From the NCBI GenBank assembly GCA_017960565.1, contig JAGCYY010000011.1, forward strand, positions 1-52,068: a DNA stretch of 52,068 nucleotides, written 5' to 3'. The notes beneath the pieces were generated by a model. It made no database searches, was not told the origin of the DNA, and worked only from the letters and a program-made list of their open reading frames with translations. The position numbers and the translations under genes were made by a program. Below are positions 13,286 through 26,569 of the stretch, piece after piece. The DNA is from a bacterium. Its GTDB lineage: Bacteria; Bacillota_I; Bacilli_A; Izemoplasmatales; UBA1188. Each line of letters starts with the position of its first letter. The first letter of the stretch is position 1.

Positions 13286-16219
13286 TTATGCATTTTGTTT
13301 TTCTTCGTTTAATAAAGAAATAGCGATATCTGCGAGCTTTGGATCAAATTGTCTACCTTTTCCTTTTTCCAGTTCAGATTTAATTATATCAATATCTAAA
13401 GCTTTTCTATAACATCTTGAAGAATTCATCGCATCATAAGCATCTGCGACAGAAATTATTCTTGCGAATAGTGGTATGTCTTCGCCTTTTAGCCCGTAAC
13501 AGTATCCTGATCCATCATATCTTTCGTGATGATATTTAGCACCCTCATCAACACCTTTCAACATTGTAAAGTTTTTGAGAATGTCTCCACCAGCGACTGT
13601 ATGTCTTTTGATTGTTTCAAATTCTTCGTCTGTCAGTCTTGCAGGTTTTTTAAGAATATCATCTGGAACACCAATTTTACCTATATCATGTAATAGAGCG
13701 ATATAATATAATCTTTCTAAATCTTCTTCATTTAAACCGAGTTTTTGACCAATCTTGACAGAAAAATCTGCGACTCTTTTTGAGTGACCTTCTGTGTACG
13801 GATCTTTGGCATCTATTGCGCCAGAGATAGTGGCGATTGTTTCATCAGTAATCTTTTTGTATTCTTCTTCTTTTTTCTCAATACGTTTGATTCTAACTCT
13901 CGCAATGATAAAGAATATTAGGAATGTTGCGACTGCAGCTATTATCATTATAGTTAGAGGGAACCAAATGGTCTCTTGGAATTTAGGAGATTTGATAAAT
14001 GTAATAACTATCTCATCACCATAAAGATTATCGCTGTTTAATGCTCTGAAATGGAATACATATGTGCCAGGCCCTAGGTTTGTGTATTCTATTGTACGTT
14101 GGTCAGCTATTGCACCCATCTTAGGTTCGGTGTCGAATCCTTCAAGCCAATATTCAGCTCTAGTATCTTCGCCAGTAAAAGAAAGCGCGGCAAGAGTTAT
14201 TGATAATTTAGATAAGTTTTTATCTAATTTTACTGTATCAGTACCATCCCATTCTTGGCCATCACTGAATGTCATGCTTTTGACCTGAACTTTTGGTTTT
14301 GCATTGTTTTTATAGATTGTAGCTTCGTCGAATATTCCAATACCGTTTGTAGTACATATGATAAAGAGAGTTCCTTCGTGGAAACTAAATGAATTGGCGA
14401 TTAGTGGCCCTGGAAGTCCATCATAACGAGCAAAATAATTTGTTTTTATATGTTCTTTGTCGTTATTTATTAGTTCTTCTTTAGAAATCTTTATGATACC
14501 ACTGGCTCTAAATACCCAAAGAGATTCATTGTCAGCGAAAAAATCTACAACACTTCCGCTACCATATTCAGGAATGTTTAATTTGGTGAAACTTGAACTA
14601 GTGCCATAGTATGTATCATATCCACAAGAAACAAATAAATTGTTTGAATTTGTGTCATTTTTGATTCTTAAAATGACACCGCTTGAAAGATCTTTATTGC
14701 TTTCAAATGGAACATAAGTGTCCTCTTTTATCTCATATATTCCTTTGCCGTTAGTTCCTGCGATGATTTTACCATCGTTTGTTTCATTTAGGCATAGAAT
14801 CATTGTTCCAGTGTCGATTGTTTTAACATGAACACCATTTTCCACTACTTCGACAGCTTTACCAGTTCCTATATATAATTTGTTGTCACTAGAATAAAGT
14901 AGACATCTTATTCTTTGATCAGAGAATTCGGTTGCAGGAATATTTACATCAATTGTATCTGTCTCACCATCGTATATGTATAAACCTTTATAATGTGTTC
15001 CTACATATAGTTTTCCTCCACCAGATACTATATGATGAACATGAGTTCCCGGATTTATAGCGTTTGATAGAGGGTTGTCCTCAATTTTATTCCAATTTTC
15101 ATCGAAAACTAATATATTATCCTCTGAACCAACATAATATCTATTTTGATATTTAGAAATGGTATATGTTTCTTTATCTTCTATTTCGTCTACATTCGCA
15201 ACCTTCATAATTTTTGTTTTTCTTACATGAATTACTCCGTATTTAGAAGATGCTATCCAGAGATTATGTTCATAGTCTTCAGTAATCTTTTCCAGGTTTG
15301 AGGTATATTTTAGATATGAATAATCGTAGAACTCACCACCATTAATCATTGACAAACCATTTGCACCACAAATCCATATTTCGTGTGATTCTGTTTCTAT
15401 GATGTGATTTGTTTCTCTTAGTACTTCATTTTCGATTGTAGTTCTAGTCTCATTTTCTTTTCCAGGATTTTTAATAATAAACAATTTATTAGAACTTGTT
15501 CCAACATAAAGAGTTGAATCTGAAGACATTAGTGCAGAATAAGCATATGTACTAGCACCAAAATCTTTTACTATTATTGGTGTTTCTGAGATGTTTTTTG
15601 TGTTGATTATTACGACGTTTCCGTTATAATCAACACCATAAAGATAATCATCTTTAAGTGATAAGGTATAAAAAGTTGAATTTCTATATGGATTTCCATC
15701 AATAGAAAATTGTTCTAGGTTGTAGTTAATAACTTTGTTGTTTTCTATGTAGGCAATCCCATCATATGTTCCGATCCATATTCGATCAAAACTATCTTCC
15801 ATAAAACATCTAATAGATGAATGCTTGTTTAATTCTAAGTCTTGTTCAGGCTGTTTAAATTCATTACCATCTAAATAGAAAGCTCCCTGATCATTTGAAC
15901 CGACCCAAAAGATACCATTTTTATCTTGGTATAAACTTCTTATATTATGAGATGAAAGGCCCATTGTTCCACTTATTAATTCAAATGATACACCATCGTA
16001 TTTTTGTAGCCCTCCATAACCACCAATCCATACATATCCGTCACTTGTTTGGAAAACAGCATTGGCTTCGCCTGTAGGGATACCATTATCGCTTGAATAT
16101 ACATCAACTTCGTATGGTGTTATTTGCTTTATGTCTTCTGCTTTTGTGCTTTTTGAAATAAACATAAATACGGCTAGAAGTGATATTAATAGTATTAAAA
16201 TTAGGGATTTCTTTTGCAT
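13286..16219 (-). CDS. Beta-propeller sensor with HD-GYP c-di-GMP phosphodiesterase domain
   Basis: Membrane sensor of 977 residues that should hydrolyse cyclic di-GMP in response to an outside signal. A signal peptide (about 1-27) is followed by a long extracytoplasmic two-component-regulator propeller (about 35-650; repeats such as DGYVWIGGYGGLQKYDG and NGIFWVGSNDQGAF). Next come a Y_Y_Y domain (about 660-745, YTNLGPGTYVFHFRALN), one membrane helix (about 755-780) and an HD-GYP domain (about 800-970). HD ligands LLHDIGK and the HHERYDGSGY motif are present; the third residue of GYP is Cys, and a downstream VADAYDAM block is normal. The usual histidine kinase output of this sensor class is replaced. 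It is the last gene of the operon with the GGDEF and EAL proteins. Confidence 0.9.
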   Translation of the reverse strand: MQKKSLILILLISLLAVFMFISKSTKAEDIKQITPYEVDVYSSDNGIPTGEANAVFQTSDGYVWIGGYGGLQKYDGVSFELISGTMGLSSHNIRSLYQDKNGIFWVGSNDQGAFYLDGNEFKQPEQDLELNKHSSIRCFMEDSFDRIWIGTYDGIAYIENNKVINYNLEQFSIDGNPYRNSTFYTLSLKDDYLYGVDYNGNVVIINTKNISETPIIVKDFGASTYAYSALMSSDSTLYVGTSSNKLFIIKNPGKENETRTTIENEVLRETNHIIETESHEIWICGANGLSMINGGEFYDYSYLKYTSNLEKITEDYEHNLWIASSKYGVIHVRKTKIMKVANVDEIEDKETYTISKYQNRYYVGSEDNILVFDENWNKIEDNPLSNAINPGTHVHHIVSGGGKLYVGTHYKGLYIYDGETDTIDVNIPATEFSDQRIRCLLYSSDNKLYIGTGKAVEVVENGVHVKTIDTGTMILCLNETNDGKIIAGTNGKGIYEIKEDTYVPFESNKDLSSGVILRIKNDTNSNNLFVSCGYDTYYGTSSSFTKLNIPEYGSGSVVDFFADNESLWVFRASGIIKISKEELINNDKEHIKTNYFARYDGLPGPLIANSFSFHEGTLFIICTTNGIGIFDEATIYKNNAKPKVQVKSMTFSDGQEWDGTDTVKLDKNLSKLSITLAALSFTGEDTRAEYWLEGFDTEPKMGAIADQRTIEYTNLGPGTYVFHFRALNSDNLYGDEIVITFIKSPKFQETIWFPLTIMIIAAVATFLIFFIIARVRIKRIEKKEEEYKKITDETIATISGAIDAKDPYTEGHSKRVADFSVKIGQKLGLNEEDLERLYYIALLHDIGKIGVPDDILKKPARLTDEEFETIKRHTVAGGDILKNFTMLKGVDEGAKYHHERYDGSGYCYGLKGEDIPLFARIISVADAYDAMNSSRCYRKALDIDIIKSELEKGKGRQFDPKLADIAISLLNEEKQNA

Positions 16220-16230
16220 AAGAAGACCTC

Positions 16231-16707
16231 CTATTTATCTAATAGTTTTGTAAACTTGTCTTCTGTGATTCTATAAACAGTCCAGTCGCTCATAGCTTTT
16301 GCACCGAGTGATAAGTAAAAATTAATGCTTGGTTTATTCCAATTGAGACACCACCATTCAAGTCTTCCATATCCACGTTCGATAGCTATCTTAGATAATT
16401 CTTTGATAGTCATCTTACCATAACCTTTATGGCGATATTCTTCTTTTATATATAAATCTTCTAAATAGATTCCGGCCTTACCAAGAAATGTTGAAAAATT
16501 GTTGAAGAAAACAGCGAAGCCAATTTCCTTATCATTTTCTAAAATAAATAAAACTTCTGCTTTCTTCTTTTCAAATATCCATTCTTCTATCAACTCTTTT
16601 GTTGCAGTTACTTCATCCAACATTTTTTCATATGATGCAAGTTCTTTAATAAAACTTAATATAAGTTTGGAGTCTTCCTTTTTAGCAAATCTAAATGTTG
16701 GGTTCAT
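16231..16707 (-). CDS. GNAT acetyltransferase, diamine/thialysine (SSAT-like) subgroup
   Basis: Cytosolic N-acetyltransferase of 158 residues using acetyl-CoA. The acetyl-CoA loop EYRHKGYGK and the subgroup signature RLEWWCLNWNKPSINFYLSLGA followed by WTVYRI match spermidine/spermine or thialysine acetyltransferases. AGGAGG lies 5 bases before the start. It sits 45 bases after the GGDEF gene and 11 bases before the HD-GYP gene, in one transcript. A link between polyamine acetylation and c-di-GMP signalling is suggested by position only. Confidence 0.85.
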   Translation of the reverse strand: MNPTFRFAKKEDSKLILSFIKELASYEKMLDEVTATKELIEEWIFEKKKAEVLFILENDKEIGFAVFFNNFSTFLGKAGIYLEDLYIKEEYRHKGYGKMTIKELSKIAIERGYGRLEWWCLNWNKPSINFYLSLGAKAMSDWTVYRITEDKFTKLLDK

Positions 16708-16752
16708 AGTGCCTCCTATTACTAAAAAAATACAAAATGTACTTCTTTAACT

Positions 16753-18156
16753 TTATGCAATATTATTTAGATATTGTTTATGCATATTCTCTTTATTTGA
16801 ATACATATGAATTTCAGCATCTTTCATAATTTTTCTTATTGTGCTTGTGTTTACTGTATCAGAATATGCATACCCATAAGATACACTGGCTTTATTTGCT
16901 TTTTGTAGAGATTTGAATTTTTCTGCTCTTTCTTCTAATTCATCTAAGGTGATGTCTGTCATAATCGATACAAATTCATCGCCACCAACTCTAAAGCAGT
17001 TTTCATCACTACCTTGACCAAAACATTCACCGATACATTTTGCAGCTCTTCTTAAGAGATTATCTCCTTCTTCGTGGCCTATTGTATCGTTTGTGAGTTT
17101 GAGATAATTTACATCAAAAAGAATATATGCGAATGACTTGTTGTCATTTTGACCTACTATTGATTCAAGACATTGTTCATATTTATATCTATTATTTAGA
17201 CCAGTCAAGAAATCTTTTTCTGCCATTGAACGAAGTTTAGAATCTAATTCATCACGACGTTTAAGAAGATTGTTGTAGGCATAGGCAAGAAGTTTAGTTT
17301 CTTTATATCCGTTTTTAGTATCAAATTCTTTATCCGATTCTATTGATTTTGTGAATACAGCAAGTGGATAAATTAAATTCTTATATAAGCCAATGAATAG
17401 TGCTGTAAATGTAATTATGACAAGGGCAGTGTGAATTAGTAGAGTTGTTTGCATTGTGCTAATCTGTTTAGAAATATCTTTGATCTTATTATCAGATAAA
17501 TCTTGTAGATGTGTTGTGTACTTAGTAACATTTTGATTAACATTATATTTCATTGAACCATATCTTTCACTCAGCACAAGCGATTGAGCTTTGTTGATCT
17601 TTTCTTCGTTTGTGAGTTCAGTATCAACTTGCTCAAGTTCAGGTAGGTTTTCTCTAATAACATCTAAATTTGGTTGAGGAGGGAAAGGATAAATGCTGTT
17701 CACAAGTGCAAGAGCATAAAGTTGTGTGTTTAATAAGTCGCCAGCATTTACACCAGCATCTCTTATATAATTTATTGCTTCATTATCAGCACCATTTTCA
17801 CTTAGTTTTTTAATGATGTCTGCACCTCTATGATCTTGAGATAATTCAGCAGCAAAAGCATTTAATGGGCCAATATTTGTATTATTGTTGTCGAGTCTTG
17901 GCTTAACAACGAATGAAATACATGATTCTGATAATTGGCTTACACCTGCTAGCAACGCTGTTGCGTCAGCAATAGACTCTTTTGTGCTTTCTGCGGTTTC
18001 TGTCATCGAAACACTATTTCTATTGATGTTTATAATTAAAGCTACTACAACAATATGAAGGGCTACCAATAAAGCAATGATTGGAATAGTTAGAGCATTG
18101 ATGGTTATCAACTTTTTCTTTTTAATGTTGTCGTTTGATTGATTTACCTTTTCCAT
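16753..18156 (-). CDS. Membrane diguanylate cyclase (GGDEF) with extracytoplasmic helical sensor
   Basis: Predicted diguanylate cyclase of 467 residues. Two membrane helices (about 20-45 and 235-260) flank an outside region of about 190 residues, mainly helical, resembling four-helix-bundle sensors. The cytosolic GGDEF domain (about 305-465) has the metal-binding FDVNYLKLTND and an intact FRVGGDEF active site. I see no RxxD inhibitory site five residues upstream, so product inhibition is doubtful. ATG at 18156 was chosen because it follows the EAL gene's stop by one base with a GGAGA upstream; in-frame starts further up would lie in the EAL gene. Confidence 0.88.
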   Translation of the reverse strand: MEKVNQSNDNIKKKKLITINALTIPIIALLVALHIVVVALIININRNSVSMTETAESTKESIADATALLAGVSQLSESCISFVVKPRLDNNNTNIGPLNAFAAELSQDHRGADIIKKLSENGADNEAINYIRDAGVNAGDLLNTQLYALALVNSIYPFPPQPNLDVIRENLPELEQVDTELTNEEKINKAQSLVLSERYGSMKYNVNQNVTKYTTHLQDLSDNKIKDISKQISTMQTTLLIHTALVIITFTALFIGLYKNLIYPLAVFTKSIESDKEFDTKNGYKETKLLAYAYNNLLKRRDELDSKLRSMAEKDFLTGLNNRYKYEQCLESIVGQNDNKSFAYILFDVNYLKLTNDTIGHEEGDNLLRRAAKCIGECFGQGSDENCFRVGGDEFVSIMTDITLDELEERAEKFKSLQKANKASVSYGYAYSDTVNTSTIRKIMKDAEIHMYSNKENMHKQYLNNIA

Positions 18157-18157
18157 A

Positions 18158-20287
18158 TTACTCTTTCTCCTTGGTTTGATTATCTTTCTTTTGTTTTTCA
18201 AGGAATACAGCTGGAGAGTATAAATATCCTTGATAATAATCACAACCAATCTTGTGAAGAATTTCACGTTTCTTATCTAAATCTACGTATTCTGCAAGAA
18301 CGACTAAATTAAGTGATTTAGAAAGCTGAATGATAGAAGATACGATATCTTGAGTATTATCGTGAGTGAATAATCCATCAACCAAAGATCCATCAAGTTT
18401 AATAATATCGAAGAGATCTTCTCTTAAATATTTGATTGATGTTTGTCCCATTGAGAAGTCATCAATGGCGAGTGATAAACCGATTTCTTTGATTGATTTT
18501 AATGCTGCAAGAGTTTCATCACTTATTGAGATGGCAGCTTGTTCTGTAATTTCAATACATATTTTTTTGTTTTTGAATAAGTCTTGAGATTTTAATTGTC
18601 CACAATATTGAACATATCTTGGGGTTATAACTGTGGTTCCTGTAACATTTACAGAAACCTTGATGCCTTTACCAAACTTTTCTTCGACTTGTTCATAATC
18701 ATCAAGTGCGGTTTTTAAAATTCTTTCTTCAAGTTCTGCAAGGAATCCTCCTTCTTCTGCAAGTTTTATTACTAGCGGAGGATAAAGCATACCAATTACC
18801 GGATGTTCGAATCTTAGAAGTGCTTCAGCGCCAAAACATTCTCCATCATATTTATATTGTGGTTGATATGCAAGAACTATTCCTTTCTTGAAACTATACC
18901 TTAAATCATTACATAAGTCTTTAGCATAATCTCCATAGAAGTTACCAAGTTCAATAATCTTTTTGTTTCCGTTGAATTGATTTTCGTTTTCTTTGAAATA
19001 ATTCATGAATAAATCGAAGTTCTTTTTAGTGTTTTCTTCTGATTGTTTATCGAGTAGACGAACGAATGGAAGATAGATTAGAACACCTAATAAAACATTT
19101 ATTATTTGAAGAACCGATCCAGCAATAGATCCTGTGGCAGTATATCCACCAAGTATTATTGGAGTTGTCCATTCAACTGCATTAGTTATCATAGGAACGA
19201 GTCCTGTAGATATTGCGATGTATGCAACTGAATAACATACTAAAGGGACAATTAGGAACGGAATTAACATAATTGGGTTAAAGATGATTGGTAGACCAAA
19301 CACCATTAATTCATTGATGTTAAATATCATTGGGAATGCAGCAGTAAGACCCAAACTCTTTCTAGCTTTATTTTTAGAGAAAGCTAATATTGCGATTAAG
19401 AGACAGATAGTTGCACCACACCCGCCCATAAGCACAAAACAATCGAAGAATTCTTTCGTAAGAATTGCGGATGCCTGGCCACCAGCTGCCACTGCAGCTT
19501 GGTTTGCCTCAAGCCCTGGAACAAAATATGTTTGCATGACACCTTCAAGTGTGTCGCTTCCATGTACACCAAAGAACCAAAGGATAGATGAAATTAAGAC
19601 AAAGAAGAATCCTTTGAAAAAACCAACTTCTCCGAACGAGAATGACCAGTTGAATGCATTTATAATTAATGATCTAAATGAATCAACATTGAATATTTCA
19701 ACGATTAAGGTGTTTATTATACCAAAAATTACAGAAACAATAGCGATCGGAAGAACGGTAACTATCATCTTATTAAATTCTCTATCACTACCTACAGCGT
19801 TGTTTGTATTTTTTCTCGCTTTTTGTAATAATTTATAAAAATATAGATAAGTTGCGGATGCACCAAGACCTGTGATAATCGCTAAGAACATTGATTTTGG
19901 GCCCATTTGATCTGTGCCAAAATTTGGAAGATATGCTCCAGCTAAAATAAAGAATACCAATATTGAAGATACTACTGCTCCACTGATAGATGTGTGCGAA
20001 TCAGATTTTAGTCTTGTATATTCTCTACTTATAGAATATGTCATATATACTGATAAAACACCAAAAGTTGCTTTGTTTATGACATTAAAAAGATTTAGGA
20101 AGAATCCTCCTAAAAATGTGTTAATAGCATTTGTATAGGCCTCTACTGGAAATGTTTGAAGTATTAGTGCAAAAGCTCCTATTATTAAGACTGGAATTAT
20201 GTGTATCAGTCCATTCCTAATGGATCTAACAATCGTGAAGTTTTCAATCTTACTAATTGTGTCGCTAATATTGTACTCTTTTTTCAT
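18158..20287 (-). CDS. PTS EIIC-like permease fused to an EAL c-di-GMP phosphodiesterase domain
   Basis: Fusion of 709 residues. Residues about 1-425 form a sugar PTS EIIC domain of the lactose/cellobiose (ChbC) type with about ten membrane helices. FFGVHGSD and NINELMVFGLPIIFNP keep the histidine and glutamate associated with sugar handling, though the usual NEP proline is Leu. Residues about 450-700 form an EAL domain with EAL (AEALLRF), Asn in VNVTG, EITE, AIDDFSMG, KLDGSLV, AEYVD and QGYLYSP, so the metal and catalytic residues look intact. No EIIA or EIIB domain or gene is nearby. It may sense a sugar directly and lower c-di-GMP. First gene of the operon, with a consensus-like promoter. 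Confidence 0.9.
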   Translation of the reverse strand: MKKEYNISDTISKIENFTIVRSIRNGLIHIIPVLIIGAFALILQTFPVEAYTNAINTFLGGFFLNLFNVINKATFGVLSVYMTYSISREYTRLKSDSHTSISGAVVSSILVFFILAGAYLPNFGTDQMGPKSMFLAIITGLGASATYLYFYKLLQKARKNTNNAVGSDREFNKMIVTVLPIAIVSVIFGIINTLIVEIFNVDSFRSLIINAFNWSFSFGEVGFFKGFFFVLISSILWFFGVHGSDTLEGVMQTYFVPGLEANQAAVAAGGQASAILTKEFFDCFVLMGGCGATICLLIAILAFSKNKARKSLGLTAAFPMIFNINELMVFGLPIIFNPIMLIPFLIVPLVCYSVAYIAISTGLVPMITNAVEWTTPIILGGYTATGSIAGSVLQIINVLLGVLIYLPFVRLLDKQSEENTKKNFDLFMNYFKENENQFNGNKKIIELGNFYGDYAKDLCNDLRYSFKKGIVLAYQPQYKYDGECFGAEALLRFEHPVIGMLYPPLVIKLAEEGGFLAELEERILKTALDDYEQVEEKFGKGIKVSVNVTGTTVITPRYVQYCGQLKSQDLFKNKKICIEITEQAAISISDETLAALKSIKEIGLSLAIDDFSMGQTSIKYLREDLFDIIKLDGSLVDGLFTHDNTQDIVSSIIQLSKSLNLVVLAEYVDLDKKREILHKIGCDYYQGYLYSPAVFLEKQKKDNQTKEKE

Positions 20288-20435: not shown

Positions 20436-20457
20436 AAATGAGATATAAATCTCATTT
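20436..20457 (-). terminator. Terminator of the MATE/partner-switching operon
   Basis: Hairpin AAATGAGAT/ATCTCATTT with a 4-base loop, followed by TTTTTATT on the minus strand, just past the 39-residue protein gene. Confidence 0.75.
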
Positions 20458-20481
20458 GCTTAATATATGGTTAAATATTAT

Positions 20482-20601
20482 TTAATCCCATCTACTTGGT
20501 GGTTTTTTATGTTCATCATCATTGTTGTCTTTATTAAAAATGGAGTATATTATTACACCTAAAATTATTAATCCTGCACCACCATATATAACCCATTCCA
20601 T
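20482..20601 (-). CDS. Small single-pass membrane protein (39 residues)
   Basis: A short gene starting ATG at 20601 with AAAGGAA about 7 bases upstream. The product begins MEWVIYGGAGLIILGVIIYSI, one membrane helix, followed by a charged tail NKDNNDDEHKKPPSRWD. It lies 30 bases after the GNAT gene and ends right before the operon terminator. No family recognised. Similar small helix-plus-acidic-tail proteins occur in many Firmicutes. Its reality rests on the ribosome binding site, helix and placement. Confidence 0.6.
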   Translation of the reverse strand: MEWVIYGGAGLIILGVIIYSIFNKDNNDDEHKKPPSRWD

Positions 20602-20631
20602 ATATAAGTTCCTTTATAAATGGTTTTAATT

Positions 20632-21174
20632 TTATTTATCTAAATTCACTATATTTGAATAAACAAGCATGTCGTGATATCCATCTTTGAGTTTTAAATA
20701 ATTAGTGATTGTTTTTTCATATATTAAACCGCATTTTTCCATTACTCTTGAAGATGCAATATTGTGTATTTCACATCCACCAAAAAATTTTTTTACGTTT
20801 AGTTTATTAAGCGAAAAATCTTTTATAGTTTTTAGCGCTTCGGTCATATATCCATTTTTTTGATATTTTTCCCAAATTGCATAATTAAATTCTAAAGAAT
20901 CTTCATTGTTATCGACTCTTAAATATATGCATCCAATAATTGTGTTATCTTTTAGTGTGATAAGCCAATTGTAATATTCTTTATTTTGATATTTCTGATC
21001 TATTCCTTTTAAAGAATCTTTTTCTTGATCTAGTGTTCTAGGTTCTTTGTTTGCATAATACAAAAAAGCTTTGTCATTCACAAAACTATTAAATATTCCT
21101 TCTGCATCTGATTCTTTCATTCTTCTTAAAATTAATCTAGAAGTTGATAATTTAATTGTGCCTAAGTGTTTCAT
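20632..21174 (-). CDS. GNAT acetyltransferase, RimJ/RimL type
   Basis: Cytosolic acetyltransferase of 180 residues of the Acetyltransf_3 group, which modifies ribosomal protein N-termini, other proteins or small amines. TSRLILRRMKESDAEGIFNSF is the classic N-terminus, WEKYQKNGYMTEAL the acetyl-CoA loop and NIASSRVMEKCGL the C-terminal signature. No good ribosome binding site; it starts 3 bases after the ATPase gene's stop, so expression likely depends on coupling. Its link with the partner-switching genes is by position only. Confidence 0.85.
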   Translation of the reverse strand: MKHLGTIKLSTSRLILRRMKESDAEGIFNSFVNDKAFLYYANKEPRTLDQEKDSLKGIDQKYQNKEYYNWLITLKDNTIIGCIYLRVDNNEDSLEFNYAIWEKYQKNGYMTEALKTIKDFSLNKLNVKKFFGGCEIHNIASSRVMEKCGLIYEKTITNYLKLKDGYHDMLVYSNIVNLDK

Positions 21175-21177
21175 AAA

Positions 21178-21594
21178 TCATTTAATTATTATTTTTCGTA
21201 GTACGAGGATGTTTTTGCCTTCTTTAAAGTCATATGCGACTTCATCCATTGCTTTTTTTGTCATCAAAATACCAAGCCCACCAATTGGTCGCTCCTCTGC
21301 TTCTATTGAGATGTCTGGATCTTTGTTTTCTAGAGGGTTAAATGGTCTTCCTGAATCGATAAATGTTATTTCAAGCGTTGAATTATTTCTAATTGATTCT
21401 ATCAATATTTTTACTATACCAGAGTTTGGATAATATGCATAACTTGCAATATTTACAAATATTTCTTCTACCGAAATGGCTATTTGTGTTTGTATCTTTG
21501 TTGGGCAATCTATCGTTTTTAGATAATCTCTAATAAAAGAGAGAACCATTGTAAGATTGTCCACATAAGATTCAATTTTTAGTTCTTTTTTCAT
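21178..21594 (-). CDS. RsbW-like anti-sigma/serine kinase ATPase domain protein
   Basis: Single HATPase_c domain protein of 138 residues, cytosolic. N box SVEEIFVNIASYAY retains the ExxxN magnesium site, G1 is FIDSGRPFNP, and G2 is PIGGLGILM. Proteins of this type phosphorylate a STAS partner on Ser and sequester a target when the partner is phosphorylated. The STAS gene lies directly upstream with an 8-base gap. Unlike rsbW loci there is no sigma factor next to it, so the target is unknown. The ribosome binding site is weak, implying translational coupling. Confidence 0.88.
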   Translation of the reverse strand: MKKELKIESYVDNLTMVLSFIRDYLKTIDCPTKIQTQIAISVEEIFVNIASYAYYPNSGIVKILIESIRNNSTLEITFIDSGRPFNPLENKDPDISIEAEERPIGGLGILMTKKAMDEVAYDFKEGKNILVLRKIIIK

Positions 21595-21602
21595 AGATTA
21601 AA

Positions 21603-21902
21603 TTAACACATATCAAAAACAGCATCTAATCCGACATTTTCAAGCACTTCTTTAAAGTTCTCTCCAACATCTTTGAGCATCATTTGTCCCTTTACTGCTT
21701 TAAGAATTTTATAAGTTGAAAGCAAGACTCTTATTCCTGCCGATGAGACATAGTCACACTCTTTAAAATTTAAAATTAGTGTTTCTATACCAGGAAGTTC
21801 CTTTTCAAGTAAAAGAGAAAGTTCTGGAGCAGTTAATGTATTAAGTTCTCCTGATAAGACAACTTCTAATTGTTTTCCATTCTTTTTAGCTTCTAATTTC
21901 AT
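21603..21902 (-). CDS. STAS anti-anti-sigma-factor-like protein (RsbV/SpoIIAA type)
   Basis: Cytosolic protein of 99 residues forming one STAS domain. The phosphorylation loop reads FKECDYVSSAGIRVLLS, with the serine pair of the family just before Ala-Gly. It should bind the RsbW-like ATPase when unphosphorylated. GGAGG precedes the start. It lies 10 bases after the SpoIIE phosphatase gene and 8 bases before the ATPase gene, completing a phosphatase/antagonist/kinase trio. Confidence 0.92.
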   Translation of the reverse strand: MKLEAKKNGKQLEVVLSGELNTLTAPELSLLLEKELPGIETLILNFKECDYVSSAGIRVLLSTYKILKAVKGQMMLKDVGENFKEVLENVGLDAVFDMC

Positions 21903-21912
21903 TTTTATCCTC

Positions 21913-23379
21913 CTACTTTTTGATTGTAAGTACCATCATAGTTATATCATCAAATTGCGGAACATCAGCTGAAAAAACATCGACTTCTTCTAATATTTTA
22001 TTTAATAAAGTTTCACCGGTAGCGTTAGATGATTCGTCTAGTATTTGTGATAATTTTTCAACTCCAAATAGAGATCCAAAGTCACTATGAGCTTCTACAA
22101 CGCCATCAGTATATAGCAATAATCTATCTCCTTTTTCAAGCTGTATTTCGCTTTGTTTATATCTTGTCTCTTCAAATCCACCAAGGAATAAGCCATGGTT
22201 AATTTTTATTTGATTAGTTGCTTGATTATATTTTTTAAATAGCGGGTAGTTGTGTCCTGCGTTTGAATACTTGAGTATCAATGAGTTCGTATCAAGTATG
22301 CCTATCCATGCAGTCGCAAACATATTTTCTTCATTATTTTCACATAAACGTTTGTTTACAAAGGTAAATATTTCTTGAGTAGAATCATGCGTTAGTGCAT
22401 AGTCTTTAATCATTGTCTTTGTAGTCATCATAAATAAGGCCGCTGGTGTTCCTTTTCCAGAAACATCAGCAATAATGATGCATATTTTATCATCACCAAT
22501 TTCAAAATAGTCATAAAAGTCACCACCAACTTCACGAGCCGTTTTCATAGTGGCATATAGATCAATATTTGGATGATTTTTAAATTCTGGATTATATGGT
22601 GGTAGGGCATCAATCTGAATTTTAGATGCAATACGAAGGTCTGATGCCTGTGCTTCTATTTTTTCTTGTGTGCTAATAAGCATTCTTGTGTTGATAGTTG
22701 TCGTTAAGTACATAAGCGCAATCGCACAAGCTAAAGAAAGAGCATAATAATCACCATTGCTGCCAATGTTGATTATTATTTCTAGCAAATAGAATAGCGG
22801 TACAAGGGCACCATAGACAATTAAACTTCTTGCAGTATGTCTAATTTCTTTATCTTTAAATTTTTTATAAAAACCATAATAAAACGATGGAACAAGCGCA
22901 ACTGCAAGATGAACAAATAGTAAAGGTGTAAATAAATAATTAAATAACACCATCTCTTGAATTCTACCATATTCATCAACATAATATAAAAGCTTAGTCC
23001 ACGGTGTTGTGACACAGATTAAGAAAAATATAATATTTGGAACAGCATATAATAGGATGTTTAACCATCTCTTTTTAGGCATTAATCCATACTGTTCTAA
23101 GAAAAACCAGTCTAGTATTGTCCCAAAGATTACAAAAGCGATTGCGTAGCCTGATGCGAATATGTAATTTAATGCTTTTAGGTTGATGTTTCCATCGACA
23201 TAATCAGTTAAGATTTCAAATAAGCACATTAATACACTTGATATCAGCATTAAAGATAACTTATCTTTAAGTTTTCTCTTATAAAACACTAAGTTATTGA
23301 ATAAGATGATAATTAACAACACTAGAGCCGTAAAAAGCAATGTTCTATATAAATTATCAATAATAAGTTGCCATTCCAT
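21913..23379 (-). CDS. Membrane SpoIIE/PP2C-type phosphatase (RsbU-like)
   Basis: Membrane-anchored phosphatase of 488 residues. Seven predicted helices (about 8-245) form an N-terminal sensor similar in layout to 7TM receptors, followed by a short linker and a PP2C/SpoIIE catalytic domain (about 260-485). Motifs VGGDFYDYF, IADVSGKGTPAALFM, SNAGHN, LLYTDGVVEA and FDDITMM give all metal-binding aspartates. It should dephosphorylate the STAS protein encoded next and thereby free or capture the ATPase partner. Good GAGGAG ribosome site; 15 bases after the MATE-ATPase fusion gene. Confidence 0.92.
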   Translation of the reverse strand: MEWQLIIDNLYRTLLFTALVLLIIILFNNLVFYKRKLKDKLSLMLISSVLMCLFEILTDYVDGNINLKALNYIFASGYAIAFVIFGTILDWFFLEQYGLMPKKRWLNILLYAVPNIIFFLICVTTPWTKLLYYVDEYGRIQEMVLFNYLFTPLLFVHLAVALVPSFYYGFYKKFKDKEIRHTARSLIVYGALVPLFYLLEIIINIGSNGDYYALSLACAIALMYLTTTINTRMLISTQEKIEAQASDLRIASKIQIDALPPYNPEFKNHPNIDLYATMKTAREVGGDFYDYFEIGDDKICIIIADVSGKGTPAALFMMTTKTMIKDYALTHDSTQEIFTFVNKRLCENNEENMFATAWIGILDTNSLILKYSNAGHNYPLFKKYNQATNQIKINHGLFLGGFEETRYKQSEIQLEKGDRLLLYTDGVVEAHSDFGSLFGVEKLSQILDESSNATGETLLNKILEEVDVFSADVPQFDDITMMVLTIKK

Positions 23380-23394
23380 AGAGATTCTCCTCTT

Positions 23395-25137
23395 TTAAAA
23401 TTCTTTCTTAATTAAAAATGAACTTCTATTAAAACTAATCGTGGTTAGATGTCTTCTATTTTGCCCGATTCTTTCCATATAAGTTGAAACCATAAAAGCA
23501 CCTATTGAAGATATGTTTATATCTTCTTCGGATACATCAAATAATATGCCATCATCTTTTGTAATAATCTGTATACCATCGTCCTTGATGGTAATTAAGC
23601 ATTCACTTAAGACTATTTTATCTGGGTTTTTCTCTTTAATAAACATATACAGTTCTTCTATTAATAGTTTAACCCTTCCAGTCGTCTTATGATCACAACT
23701 TTTTTCGTTTAATAGTTTTTCTATTTCTTTTTGTAGAGAAATAATATGTGTTGGTTCTACTTCAAGATTGAAAGAATATGATTCTTGTGTAAATGGGAGT
23801 TTAGATAAGAATAGAGGCCAATTTTCCTTCCCATAACGCTTAACAACAAATACAAGAACTATTATATAAGTTAATACAGGCGCCAAGAAAAGGCCAATAA
23901 ATACACCATATATGCCAAATATTAAACCTAAGATAGTTGATAACATCAATGCGAAAATAAAATCTCTAAGTGCGCTGATTATTATACCAAGACTAATTTT
24001 TCTTATGACAAGATAATAAGATGTGATTAAATACAACAAGCTTACAAAAATAGAACCAATCGCAATAATTCTAACCTCATTAACAACATACCTAATCAGT
24101 TCTTCGTCGGTTATATTCAATATTTTAGGAATTACATCAGCAAACAACACTAGTAGTATTGTCACTACTATCCCTTCAATAATCGCTGATTTTTCAGCTA
24201 CACGATATAAAGATTTGATACCGTCTTTGTTTTCTTCGCCAATGTATATACCAAAAATTGGAGTAGTCGCTTCTCCTATTCCATCAAAAACCATCTGTAG
24301 TTCGCGGCATATAGTAATTACGGATACAGTTATCAAAAATGCTGGTCCAAATAAATTGCTGATAATAATATTCAATAAAGCAATAAGCACTCCTAAAAAC
24401 AAATAAGAGCTTGAATCTATGATGCTATAACTAAAAACCTTTTTTAATAAATCTTTGGAAAAATATAAATTCCATTTAAGTGAATTGCTTTTTCTAAAAA
24501 AGTGAGTAAGTAATATCAAAATTGCAAGAACATTAAAACCGAACGACGAAAGACCTATGCCTTTTATACCAATTATTTGGCTTAAAAGGATTGACGATAT
24601 GATGTTTCCAAGGCCTTGAACAATGTTTGCGGTTGTCGACAGCATCTCATCGCCATCGGAATAAACGACAGCTGATATCAACATTTGAAGTGGGAGCAAT
24701 AATATTGTAAATCTCATCCAATATAGATATCCTCTTGCTGACTCTAAAACACCATCAAGAGAATTGCTGCTTCTTAGATATATGTCCCCAAGTAATATCA
24801 CTAATATAAACAAGAAGACACCAACTATAATGGACATAAGTAACCCGAATCCAAAAGCATGATTGGCTTCTTCTTTATCAAACATCCCCATTGCTTTAGA
24901 ATATACGATAGGAATACCTAGAGAAAAGATAGAACCGAAGAATGCCGCTATTGAATACATTGGTGTAACAAGTGTAATTCCAGCCACTGCATCTTGACCA
25001 AGTGAGATTCCGGCAATGATAGAATCAGACATAAGTAAGAGAGATACTATCATCATGGTTAGAGTGCCACCGAGGAGCATTGAATAATATTTTTTAGACA
25101 TAAGTGTCTTTTTCCTTTTTGAAAATAGCTTAGTCAT
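23395..25137 (-). CDS. MATE transporter fused to a C-terminal RsbW-like ATPase domain
   Basis: Fusion of 580 residues. Residues about 1-445 are a MATE exporter with twelve helices (MLLGGTLTMMIVSLLLMSDSIIAG opens the first half). The last 120 residues resemble an HATPase_c domain: helix with IEELYMFIKEK at the N box, ITKDDGILFD at G1 and SIGAFMVSTYMERIG at G2. The Asn of ExxxN is replaced by Phe and the G2 glycines are reduced, so ATP hydrolysis is doubtful and a protein-binding role (perhaps with the STAS protein) is more likely. It overlaps the upstream MATE gene by 8 bases. Confidence 0.82.
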   Translation of the reverse strand: MTKLFSKRKKTLMSKKYYSMLLGGTLTMMIVSLLLMSDSIIAGISLGQDAVAGITLVTPMYSIAAFFGSIFSLGIPIVYSKAMGMFDKEEANHAFGFGLLMSIIVGVFLFILVILLGDIYLRSSNSLDGVLESARGYLYWMRFTILLLPLQMLISAVVYSDGDEMLSTTANIVQGLGNIISSILLSQIIGIKGIGLSSFGFNVLAILILLTHFFRKSNSLKWNLYFSKDLLKKVFSYSIIDSSSYLFLGVLIALLNIIISNLFGPAFLITVSVITICRELQMVFDGIGEATTPIFGIYIGEENKDGIKSLYRVAEKSAIIEGIVVTILLVLFADVIPKILNITDEELIRYVVNEVRIIAIGSIFVSLLYLITSYYLVIRKISLGIIISALRDFIFALMLSTILGLIFGIYGVFIGLFLAPVLTYIIVLVFVVKRYGKENWPLFLSKLPFTQESYSFNLEVEPTHIISLQKEIEKLLNEKSCDHKTTGRVKLLIEELYMFIKEKNPDKIVLSECLITIKDDGIQIITKDDGILFDVSEEDINISSIGAFMVSTYMERIGQNRRHLTTISFNRSSFLIKKEF

Positions 25138-26569
25138 AATTTTGTTCCTCTGTGATTAATTCATTTTTTATGTTCTTCAGTTTATATAGATATTTCTTCA
25201 TTCCAAAGTCTTTAATTTTTGTTGGGAATCTATTGTTTACGATTGTAACAATAACGAAATTTAAAAGGAGCGTGAATATCTCACCAGCAAAAGTGCCTAA
25301 GCAAAAGCCGATGGCCCCAAATAATTCCCCAAATAAAATTTTAAAACCAAGCGGGAATAAAAATGCTTCAACAAATAAAGCAATATGAGCAAACGAATAA
25401 GCTTTAACTATTTTGTAATAAGATATTATTTGGCTGTTGATTAAATAAAACACAAAACTTATAGCGCAAGATGTTGTAAGTAAAAAAGCATAATGAATTG
25501 CTTCTTGATCACCTAATGGCAAGAACGCTTTAGCGGTAGGATAAGCTACTAAAATTAATATAACACTAAAGATTATACCTCCAATGGTCGCAAGATATGT
25601 AAGTTTTTTTGCAGAATTTTCTAAGTCTTTTTCTATAATATCACTATTTTCTTTAGATTCGATACTTATAAATCTTCCAACTCTAGTTCCAAGCATTGAT
25701 GTAACTAAAAAGCTAAATCCTATACATAATATTTCAGGAATGTTATCTATTGCCTCAAACACCGCCATTCCTGCAATTAATGATTCAGAAAAACGAGATA
25801 AAACATAGATATTTTCAATTAAATAGAAAATAGATGCTGCAAAATACTCTATAAAATCAGGAAGACCAGTATAAAGAGAATCTTTAACATCTTTGAATTT
25901 GAAGTTTAATTTATCAAATGATGCTAAAGATGTCTTTCTTTTTATTATGAAGGCATAGAAAATTAAGTAAAGATCAGCTAAAGAAATACTGATGATATTA
26001 ATAAACATATACCACATCATACTAGGACCGAGTATTGTAACAAGAATGCTTCCTAGTATCATGCTTGTATATAAAATTATGTTTATAACTATCAGTTGTT
26101 TCTTTTCTTCAAAGAAAAGCAAGCAGCTAGTTATACTAAATATTCCTTGTGGAATAAAGCAAAATATAATCATTATATAAGCTTCATCGCTTAATACAGC
26201 AAGAGTTTCACTTCCGTCATTAGCGCCTAATAAATCAAGCACGGGAAGTTTGAAAAAATAAAACAATATAGTAAGAATAATCATTATAAGGATTATCCAT
26301 GTATAACCAGCGTTTTTATGCTTTTTAAAAGACTCAAAATCTTTTGCACCATAATCTTTTGAACATACTGTTTGAATACCACAATAAGCAAGCGCTGAAA
26401 AAGCTCCTATTATTGCTAAAAGGGGCATCATTACTTCATATGCCGCAGCGCCATCCAATCCTAAAAATCTGCTTACGAAAAAAGTATTAATTAAATTAAT
26501 AATTATAATATCTATTTCAACAATTAAAGAAAAAATAAATAGCACAAATAGATTATTGCTTTTTTCCAT
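25130..26569 (-). CDS. MATE family exporter
   Basis: Membrane exporter of 479 residues with twelve helices in two MatE halves; N-terminal LFVLFIFSLIVEIDIIIINLINTFFVSRFLG and ESLIAGMAVFEAIDNIPEILCIGFSFLVTSMLGTRVG in the second half fit the family. First gene of the operon that continues with the MATE-ATPase fusion and the SpoIIE/STAS/ATPase trio. The overlapping start of the next gene (8 bases) suggests the two MATE proteins are made in similar amounts, possibly as a pair. Confidence 0.85.
   Translation of the reverse strand: MEKSNNLFVLFIFSLIVEIDIIIINLINTFFVSRFLGLDGAAAYEVMMPLLAIIGAFSALAYCGIQTVCSKDYGAKDFESFKKHKNAGYTWIILIMIILTILFYFFKLPVLDLLGANDGSETLAVLSDEAYIMIIFCFIPQGIFSITSCLLFFEEKKQLIVINIILYTSMILGSILVTILGPSMMWYMFINIISISLADLYLIFYAFIIKRKTSLASFDKLNFKFKDVKDSLYTGLPDFIEYFAASIFYLIENIYVLSRFSESLIAGMAVFEAIDNIPEILCIGFSFLVTSMLGTRVGRFISIESKENSDIIEKDLENSAKKLTYLATIGGIIFSVILILVAYPTAKAFLPLGDQEAIHYAFLLTTSCAISFVFYLINSQIISYYKIVKAYSFAHIALFVEAFLFPLGFKILFGELFGAIGFCLGTFAGEIFTLLLNFVIVTIVNNRFPTKIKDFGMKKYLYKLKNIKNELITEEQNYD

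Follow-up and report, generated by a model that had tools for sequence, protein, structure and literature searches.

Partner switches are textbook devices for the control of sigma factors, and in Rsb and SpoIIA systems the partner is a sigma factor, with the cognate SigB/F/G-type gene usually linked. What, then, does a partner switch control when it is encoded in one operon with two MATE exporters and no sigma factor? We addressed this question for contig JAGCYY010000011.1 (52,068 bp; C31 in a draft genome of 1.32 Mb, 35 contigs and 92.6% completeness), the whole of which is the window referred to below. In our preferred reading, to which we give a probability of about 0.62, the output of the switch is a membrane exporter, with the STAS protein docking on an RsbW-like tail of the second transporter (MATE2) and thereby altering transport.

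The operon occupies positions 20482-26569 of the minus strand, with seven open reading frames (ORFs), one overlap of 8 nt and otherwise gaps of 3-30 nt. An earlier note, made from the sequence alone, had described a MATE, a MATE-ATPase fusion, SpoIIE, STAS and HATPase proteins, a GNAT and a 39-residue membrane protein linked by overlaps and short gaps, and this description holds: all seven ORFs are present on one strand, and the MATE, SpoIIE, STAS, HATPase and GNAT proteins have Pfam or NCBIfam matches. Its operon edge at 20436 lay about 45 nt too far downstream of the real end at 20482. The features are as follows.

25130-26569, minus strand: MATE1, a 479-aa MATE-family transporter without a C-terminal HATPase domain (Pfam MatE, 7e-14)
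23395-25137, minus strand: MATE2, whole gene, overlapping MATE1 by 8 nt
23818-25137, minus strand: transporter part of MATE2, residues 1-440 (Pfam MatE, 6e-20)
23395-23817, minus strand: C-terminal RsbW/SpoIIAB-type HATPase domain of MATE2, residues 441-580, assigned from hhalign, HMM and Foldseek comparisons
21913-23379, minus strand: SpoIIE/PP2C phosphatase, 488 aa, 15 nt after MATE2 (Pfam SpoIIE, 7e-47)
21603-21902, minus strand: STAS protein of the anti-sigma-factor-antagonist type, 10 nt after SpoIIE (Pfam STAS, 9e-14)
21178-21594, minus strand: predicted stand-alone RsbW-like Ser kinase (HATPase), 8 nt after STAS (Pfam HATPase_c_2, 2e-18)
20632-21174, minus strand: GNAT acetyltransferase, RimL-like, the last large gene of the operon, after a 3-nt gap (Pfam Acetyltransf_3, 2e-28)
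20482-20601, minus strand: putative gene for a 39-aa single-TM peptide, after a 30-nt gap (ORF and sequence only)

PF01554 (MatE) matched two stretches in MATE2 and one in MATE1, and both proteins passed the cut-off. A promoter and terminator scan gave a result no better than shuffles. Adjoining the operon, positions 13286-20287 of the window hold a c-di-GMP cluster recognized by motifs only, with an HD-GYP protein bearing beta-propeller-like repeats, a GGDEF protein and a 709-aa EIIC-EAL protein, by its motifs a PTS-EIIC-like membrane part fused to an EAL domain.

The switch proteins retain their characteristic motifs. The phosphatase has a hydrophobic N-terminal region (residues 1 to ~235), and a motif check found its metal-binding PP2C motifs complete (GGDFYD, DVSGKG, YTDG and FDDIT). 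The STAS protein scored 62 bits against TIGR00377, past the cut-off of 53.45, and alignment placed a candidate phospho-Ser in the 'SSAG' of its loop 'YVSSAGIR'. By alignment, the ATP site of the stand-alone HATPase is intact (N-box EEIFVN, G1 DSGRPFNP and G2 GGLGI). The same genome holds a second partner-switch locus (L042:7701-12049), comprising a STAS protein, a SpoIIE-HATPase fusion and a STAS-APH-type kinase (TIGR02172-like); no sigma gene was seen in its neighbourhood as displayed, and related SpoIIE-HATPase loci occur in three sister genomes.

The C-terminus of MATE2 had no match when the full protein was scanned against Pfam and reached E = 0.02 when scanned alone. Profile methods were more sensitive. 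Using hhalign, a profile of MATE2-clade tails aligned with stand-alone or SpoIIE-fused HATPases over nearly the whole domain (probability 96.4%, E = 1.3e-9; reversed control, 0.6%), an HMM built from stand-alone and SpoIIE-fused HATPase domains only recovered the MATE2 tail at 3.3e-5 and those of relatives down to 2e-14, and the tails of several MATE2 relatives exceeded the Pfam cut-off. AlphaFold models from shallow alignments were poor (pLDDT 47.5 for the tail and 39.4 for the full length); a Foldseek search with the tail model returned RsbW/SpoIIAB-type proteins as its top nine hits, which we count as weak support because E values were only 0.01-0.14 and the alignment included the window's own HATPase. 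Judged by these comparisons of sequence, the C-terminus of MATE2 derives from an RsbW/SpoIIAB-type ATPase.

In the N-box of RsbW and SpoIIAB, the Asn holds Mg-ATP and the Glu faces the STAS Ser. The MATE2 tail has Phe in place of this Asn (EELYMF) and retains the Glu; its Gly-rich G2 lid is without its glycines, and the Asp-x-Gly of G1 is retained ('KDDG'). Loss of the Asn and the lid argues that the tail is probably a non-catalytic RsbW-like domain, a dead kinase, which in turn makes a docking surface more likely than an acting kinase. The ATPase of the earlier note's 'MATE-ATPase fusion' thus survives as the origin of the tail, and probably not as its activity.

Across 90 genomes of the order, six of them from the window's genus, searches with the MATE2 tail recovered no fused relative, nor did a single-protein search of 296 genomes of the class; a search of the phylum gave weak short matches only. 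The tail is absent from the same-genus genomes, and local conservation of the system is therefore lacking. Relatives surfaced solely with profiles from distant relatives, and one scan of genome contigs gave two loci. The first fused relatives came from a Selenomonas ruminantium plasmid, followed by G776 and the S. ruminantium HD4 genome. A 4-sequence profile run against 246 genomes from the order to which G776 belongs recovered about 35 fused proteins, and a 16-sequence profile gave a match at E ≤ 1e-80 in 93 of 189 genomes of the order of G529, with most of the matches listed spanning the whole fused model; this larger profile also found three other fused proteins in the window's own class. 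The resulting family of MATE-HATPase fusions exceeds 100 proteins in three taxonomic groups, and we found such a fusion described in none of the 5.39 million openly accessible papers searched. Phylogenetically, the first-set fused proteins form one MATE clade (45 rows, support 99/99), and the tailless MATE1 nests among the fused MATEs as a long branch.

Several architectures extend beyond the basic fusion. An 889-aa MATE-HATPase (L122:7101-9770) carries an extra C-terminal HD-CE domain. MATE proteins at L099:2898-5144 and L100:7911-10184 have an N-terminal extension of ~200 aa, which in L100 resembles a 5TM-5TMR_LYT/ECF-S-like membrane domain also present on the second SpoIIE of the window genome (L042). 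An N-terminal RsbW-like domain occurs on sodium:dicarboxylate (SDF-type) symporters at L060:6378-7952 (assigned by sequence similarity) and L102:9882-11492 (assigned by Pfam), and such domains are thus found on more than one transporter family; the L102 symporter gene lies directly upstream of a MATE-HATPase gene.

Fused MATEs are linked to SpoIIE well above expectation. Of 80 fused-MATE loci, 25 had a SpoIIE gene on the same strand within 8 kb, against about 1.2 expected, and none of 20 control loci with plain (unfused) MATEs had one within that distance. The first set contributed 8 of 40 loci, always on the same strand and with gaps of 13-3823 nt, where 0.63 were expected from 87 SpoIIE genes in ~80 Mb of the same genomes (Poisson, P = 4e-7; 6 of 38 and P = 4e-5 minus the two seed loci). 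The second set contributed 17 of 40, against about 0.6 expected (P = 2e-19), a fraction inflated by biased sampling because the profile used to select the loci contained many linked members. A random association of MATE genes with the switch in relatives, the contrary outcome named in the earlier note, therefore fails. About 70% of the fused MATEs sampled are without SpoIIE within 8 kb, including the closest relatives of the window protein (L093-L098).

Linked loci take recurrent forms. A block of MATE-HATPase, a 338-349-aa GNAT and SpoIIE is common to eleven Selenomonas-order loci (L061, L201, L209, L210, L213, L214, L216, L217, L218, L219 and L221); several of these have a separate HATPase close by, and two have STAS. 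Within the window's own class, G241 has an NRPS, MATE-HATPase, STAS and SpoIIE-HATPase, and G231 has the same arrangement with STAS not detected. Mapped on the tree, linkage requires nine label changes, at least eight of them on well-supported branches, so the association between SpoIIE and fused MATEs was gained or lost many times. This recurring pairing suggests that the switch controls export, not transcription. Among 78 fusions compared, the N-box Glu is retained in all but one and the Asn in 43. By simple counting, the Asn is lost in 21 of 26 linked versus 14 of 52 unlinked fusions (P = 8e-6); a relationship between Asn loss and SpoIIE linkage disappeared in phylogenetically independent pairs (median p 0.5), leaving a clade-level pattern only.

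Could the switch nevertheless serve a sigma factor encoded elsewhere? The earlier note had seen none in the operon, and we found no sigma-70 region 2 gene on the whole contig. The four such genes of the genome, all on contigs C29 and C5, comprise rpoD, the gene next to it, which encodes a divergent sigma-like protein of 253 aa, and one gene each for an ECF-like and a SigH-like sigma. The neighbourhoods of SpoIIE-linked fused-MATE loci had no detected sigma gene, and sigma matches near fused MATEs were confined to two SpoIIE-unlinked loci, L203 (rpoD) and L122 (ECF, weak). In an ordinary partner switch, the kinase would act as anti-sigma factor on a sigma encoded elsewhere, with the MATE genes merely members of a regulon or operon. 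The resemblance of the STAS protein and kinase to SpoIIAA/SpoIIAB and RsbV/RsbW speaks for this arrangement, as does the presence of the three non-rpoD sigma proteins; however, none of these reached the cut-off of the curated SigB/F/G models (best 63 versus 234 bits), an absence that is not absolute because the genome is 92.6% complete. It also leaves unexplained the RsbW-like transporter tail and the repeated SpoIIE linkage without a nearby sigma gene, and we consider it unlikely.

With the exporter as output, the kinase (21178-21594) would phosphorylate the STAS Ser and so keep STAS off its target. The membrane SpoIIE would sense a signal and dephosphorylate STAS, and free STAS would then dock on the RsbW-like tail of MATE2, in which the Asn is lost and the N-box Glu kept. 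Docking would change the transport activity of MATE2, in either direction, and MATE1 may be a heteromeric or paralogous partner. A stand-alone kinase alongside a dead tail fits the tail as target, not enzyme. We infer STAS binding and transport gating from the parts, their sequence motifs and their genomic association. The earlier proposal that the phosphorylation switch may govern exporter activity thereby gains strong comparative support from the SpoIIE linkage, with the amendment that the fused ATPase is probably not the acting kinase.

The direction of control might instead be reversed, with the transporter as sensor: the MATE2 tail would dimerize with the stand-alone kinase, sense nucleotide or transport state and feed this into STAS phosphorylation. 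RsbW and SpoIIAB are dimers in solved structures and RsbW acts as a dimer, which is consistent with such pairing, as are the G1 Asp-x-Gly retained in the MATE2 clade and the N-box Asn still present in more than half of the fusions. Yet the N-terminal membrane region of SpoIIE could already sense, and fusions exist without a separate kinase nearby; we judge this arrangement improbable.

The Selenomonas-order block, with its ~340-aa GNAT between MATE and SpoIIE, and the terminal GNAT of the window operon raise a further alternative, in which STAS would regulate the GNAT (for example, in acetylating a product or a ribosomal protein) and MATE2 would be a mere exporter neighbour. We rejected the window GNAT as an ortholog of the block GNAT: at 180 aa, it falls under another Pfam family (Acetyltransf_3), and blastp against the first set of loci gave no match for it. 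This difference, together with the many linked loci from which a GNAT is missing, makes regulation of the GNAT very unlikely. A vestigial, functionless tail in a chance gene cluster would accord with the degeneracy of the MATE2 tail and its absence from sister genomes, but is the least credible account, given that both the domain and the Glu of its N-box persist across the family in three taxonomic groups and that linkage is far above chance.

If MATE2 is a switch-controlled exporter, what might it export? Genes near fused MATEs encode, among others, NRPSs that end in a reductase domain (L118, L198, L199 and L208), an adenylation-condensation protein (L095), GH3 acyl-amido synthetases (L111, L112 and L119), ATP-grasp ligases (L119 and L126) and a glutamate-cysteine-ligase-like enzyme (L026), and SpoIIE-unlinked fusions often adjoin NRPS, GH3 or peptide-ligase genes. 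Judged by these neighbours, small products derived from amino acids or peptides are the probable cargo of the fusion family, and the MATE2 substrate may well be a metabolite of this kind; the window operon itself has no such biosynthesis enzyme except the GNAT. At L198:6983-15711 and L199:62-9368, both in genomes of 1.1-1.3 Mb from the class of the window, an NRPS with a terminal reductase shares a 4-nt overlap with the MATE-HATPase gene; SpoIIE-HATPase then follows, plus STAS in L198. Elsewhere, STAS is fused to an NRPS condensation domain in proteins (L235:12408-14000 and L236:8725-10329) that adjoin (L236) or lie near (L235) a MATE-HATPase, with a second STAS and SpoIIE in L235; these STAS-condensation proteins are a possible direct link from biosynthesis enzyme to exporter. 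A STAS-APH kinase adjoins a MATE-HATPase in L223, and L234 has a similar STAS protein.

A broader reading, which we hold tentatively and with some doubt, is that STAS and RsbW-like domains form a general phospho-controlled docking code coupling biosynthesis to export, in which SpoIIE and the kinase would time the plugging of an enzyme or regulator into a transporter. Its basis is the RsbW-like tails on MATEs, the STAS domains that are separate or enzyme-fused (L235, L236, L223 and L234) and the SDF symporters (L060 and L102). If true, control of the exporter by the switch would extend partner switching to post-translational control of efflux, through widespread exporters with an anti-sigma-type domain, encoded in operons together with phosphatase, kinase and STAS, and would point to testable regulators of the export of natural products from NRPS, GH3 and peptide-ligase clusters of anaerobes. 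The open literature searched yielded no transporter with an RsbW-like tail in an operon with such a switch.

The closest known systems share individual elements with the window. Like SpoIIAA/SpoIIAB/SpoIIE and RsbV/RsbW/RsbU of B. subtilis, it combines a PP2C phosphatase, a STAS protein and a GHKL Ser kinase with intact motifs; unlike them, its operon is without a sigma factor, and the candidate target is a transporter with its own RsbW-like domain. A non-sigma output of a partner switch is established, in that SiaC activates the cyclase SiaD (PMC8457831, PMC7647112). In SiaABCD and HsbRA/HsbD of Pseudomonas aeruginosa, what a STAS-type protein controls is not a sigma factor but an effector, a diguanylate cyclase (PMC7647112, PMC8457831), whereas the effector in the window would be a MATE exporter, with docking proposed to occur via an RsbW-like tail and not a stalk domain. 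SypA/SypE of Vibrio fischeri similarly has STAS as the more downstream component and a final target not known as a sigma factor (PMC10120452), but SypE is a multidomain kinase/phosphatase and the system has no transporter fusion. SLC26/SulP transporters, like MATE2, bear a partner-switch-type domain on the cytosolic side (PMC8256260, PMC6497670); theirs is a STAS tail, whereas MATE2 belongs to the MATE family and has an RsbW-like domain, the other partner of the pair, in that place.
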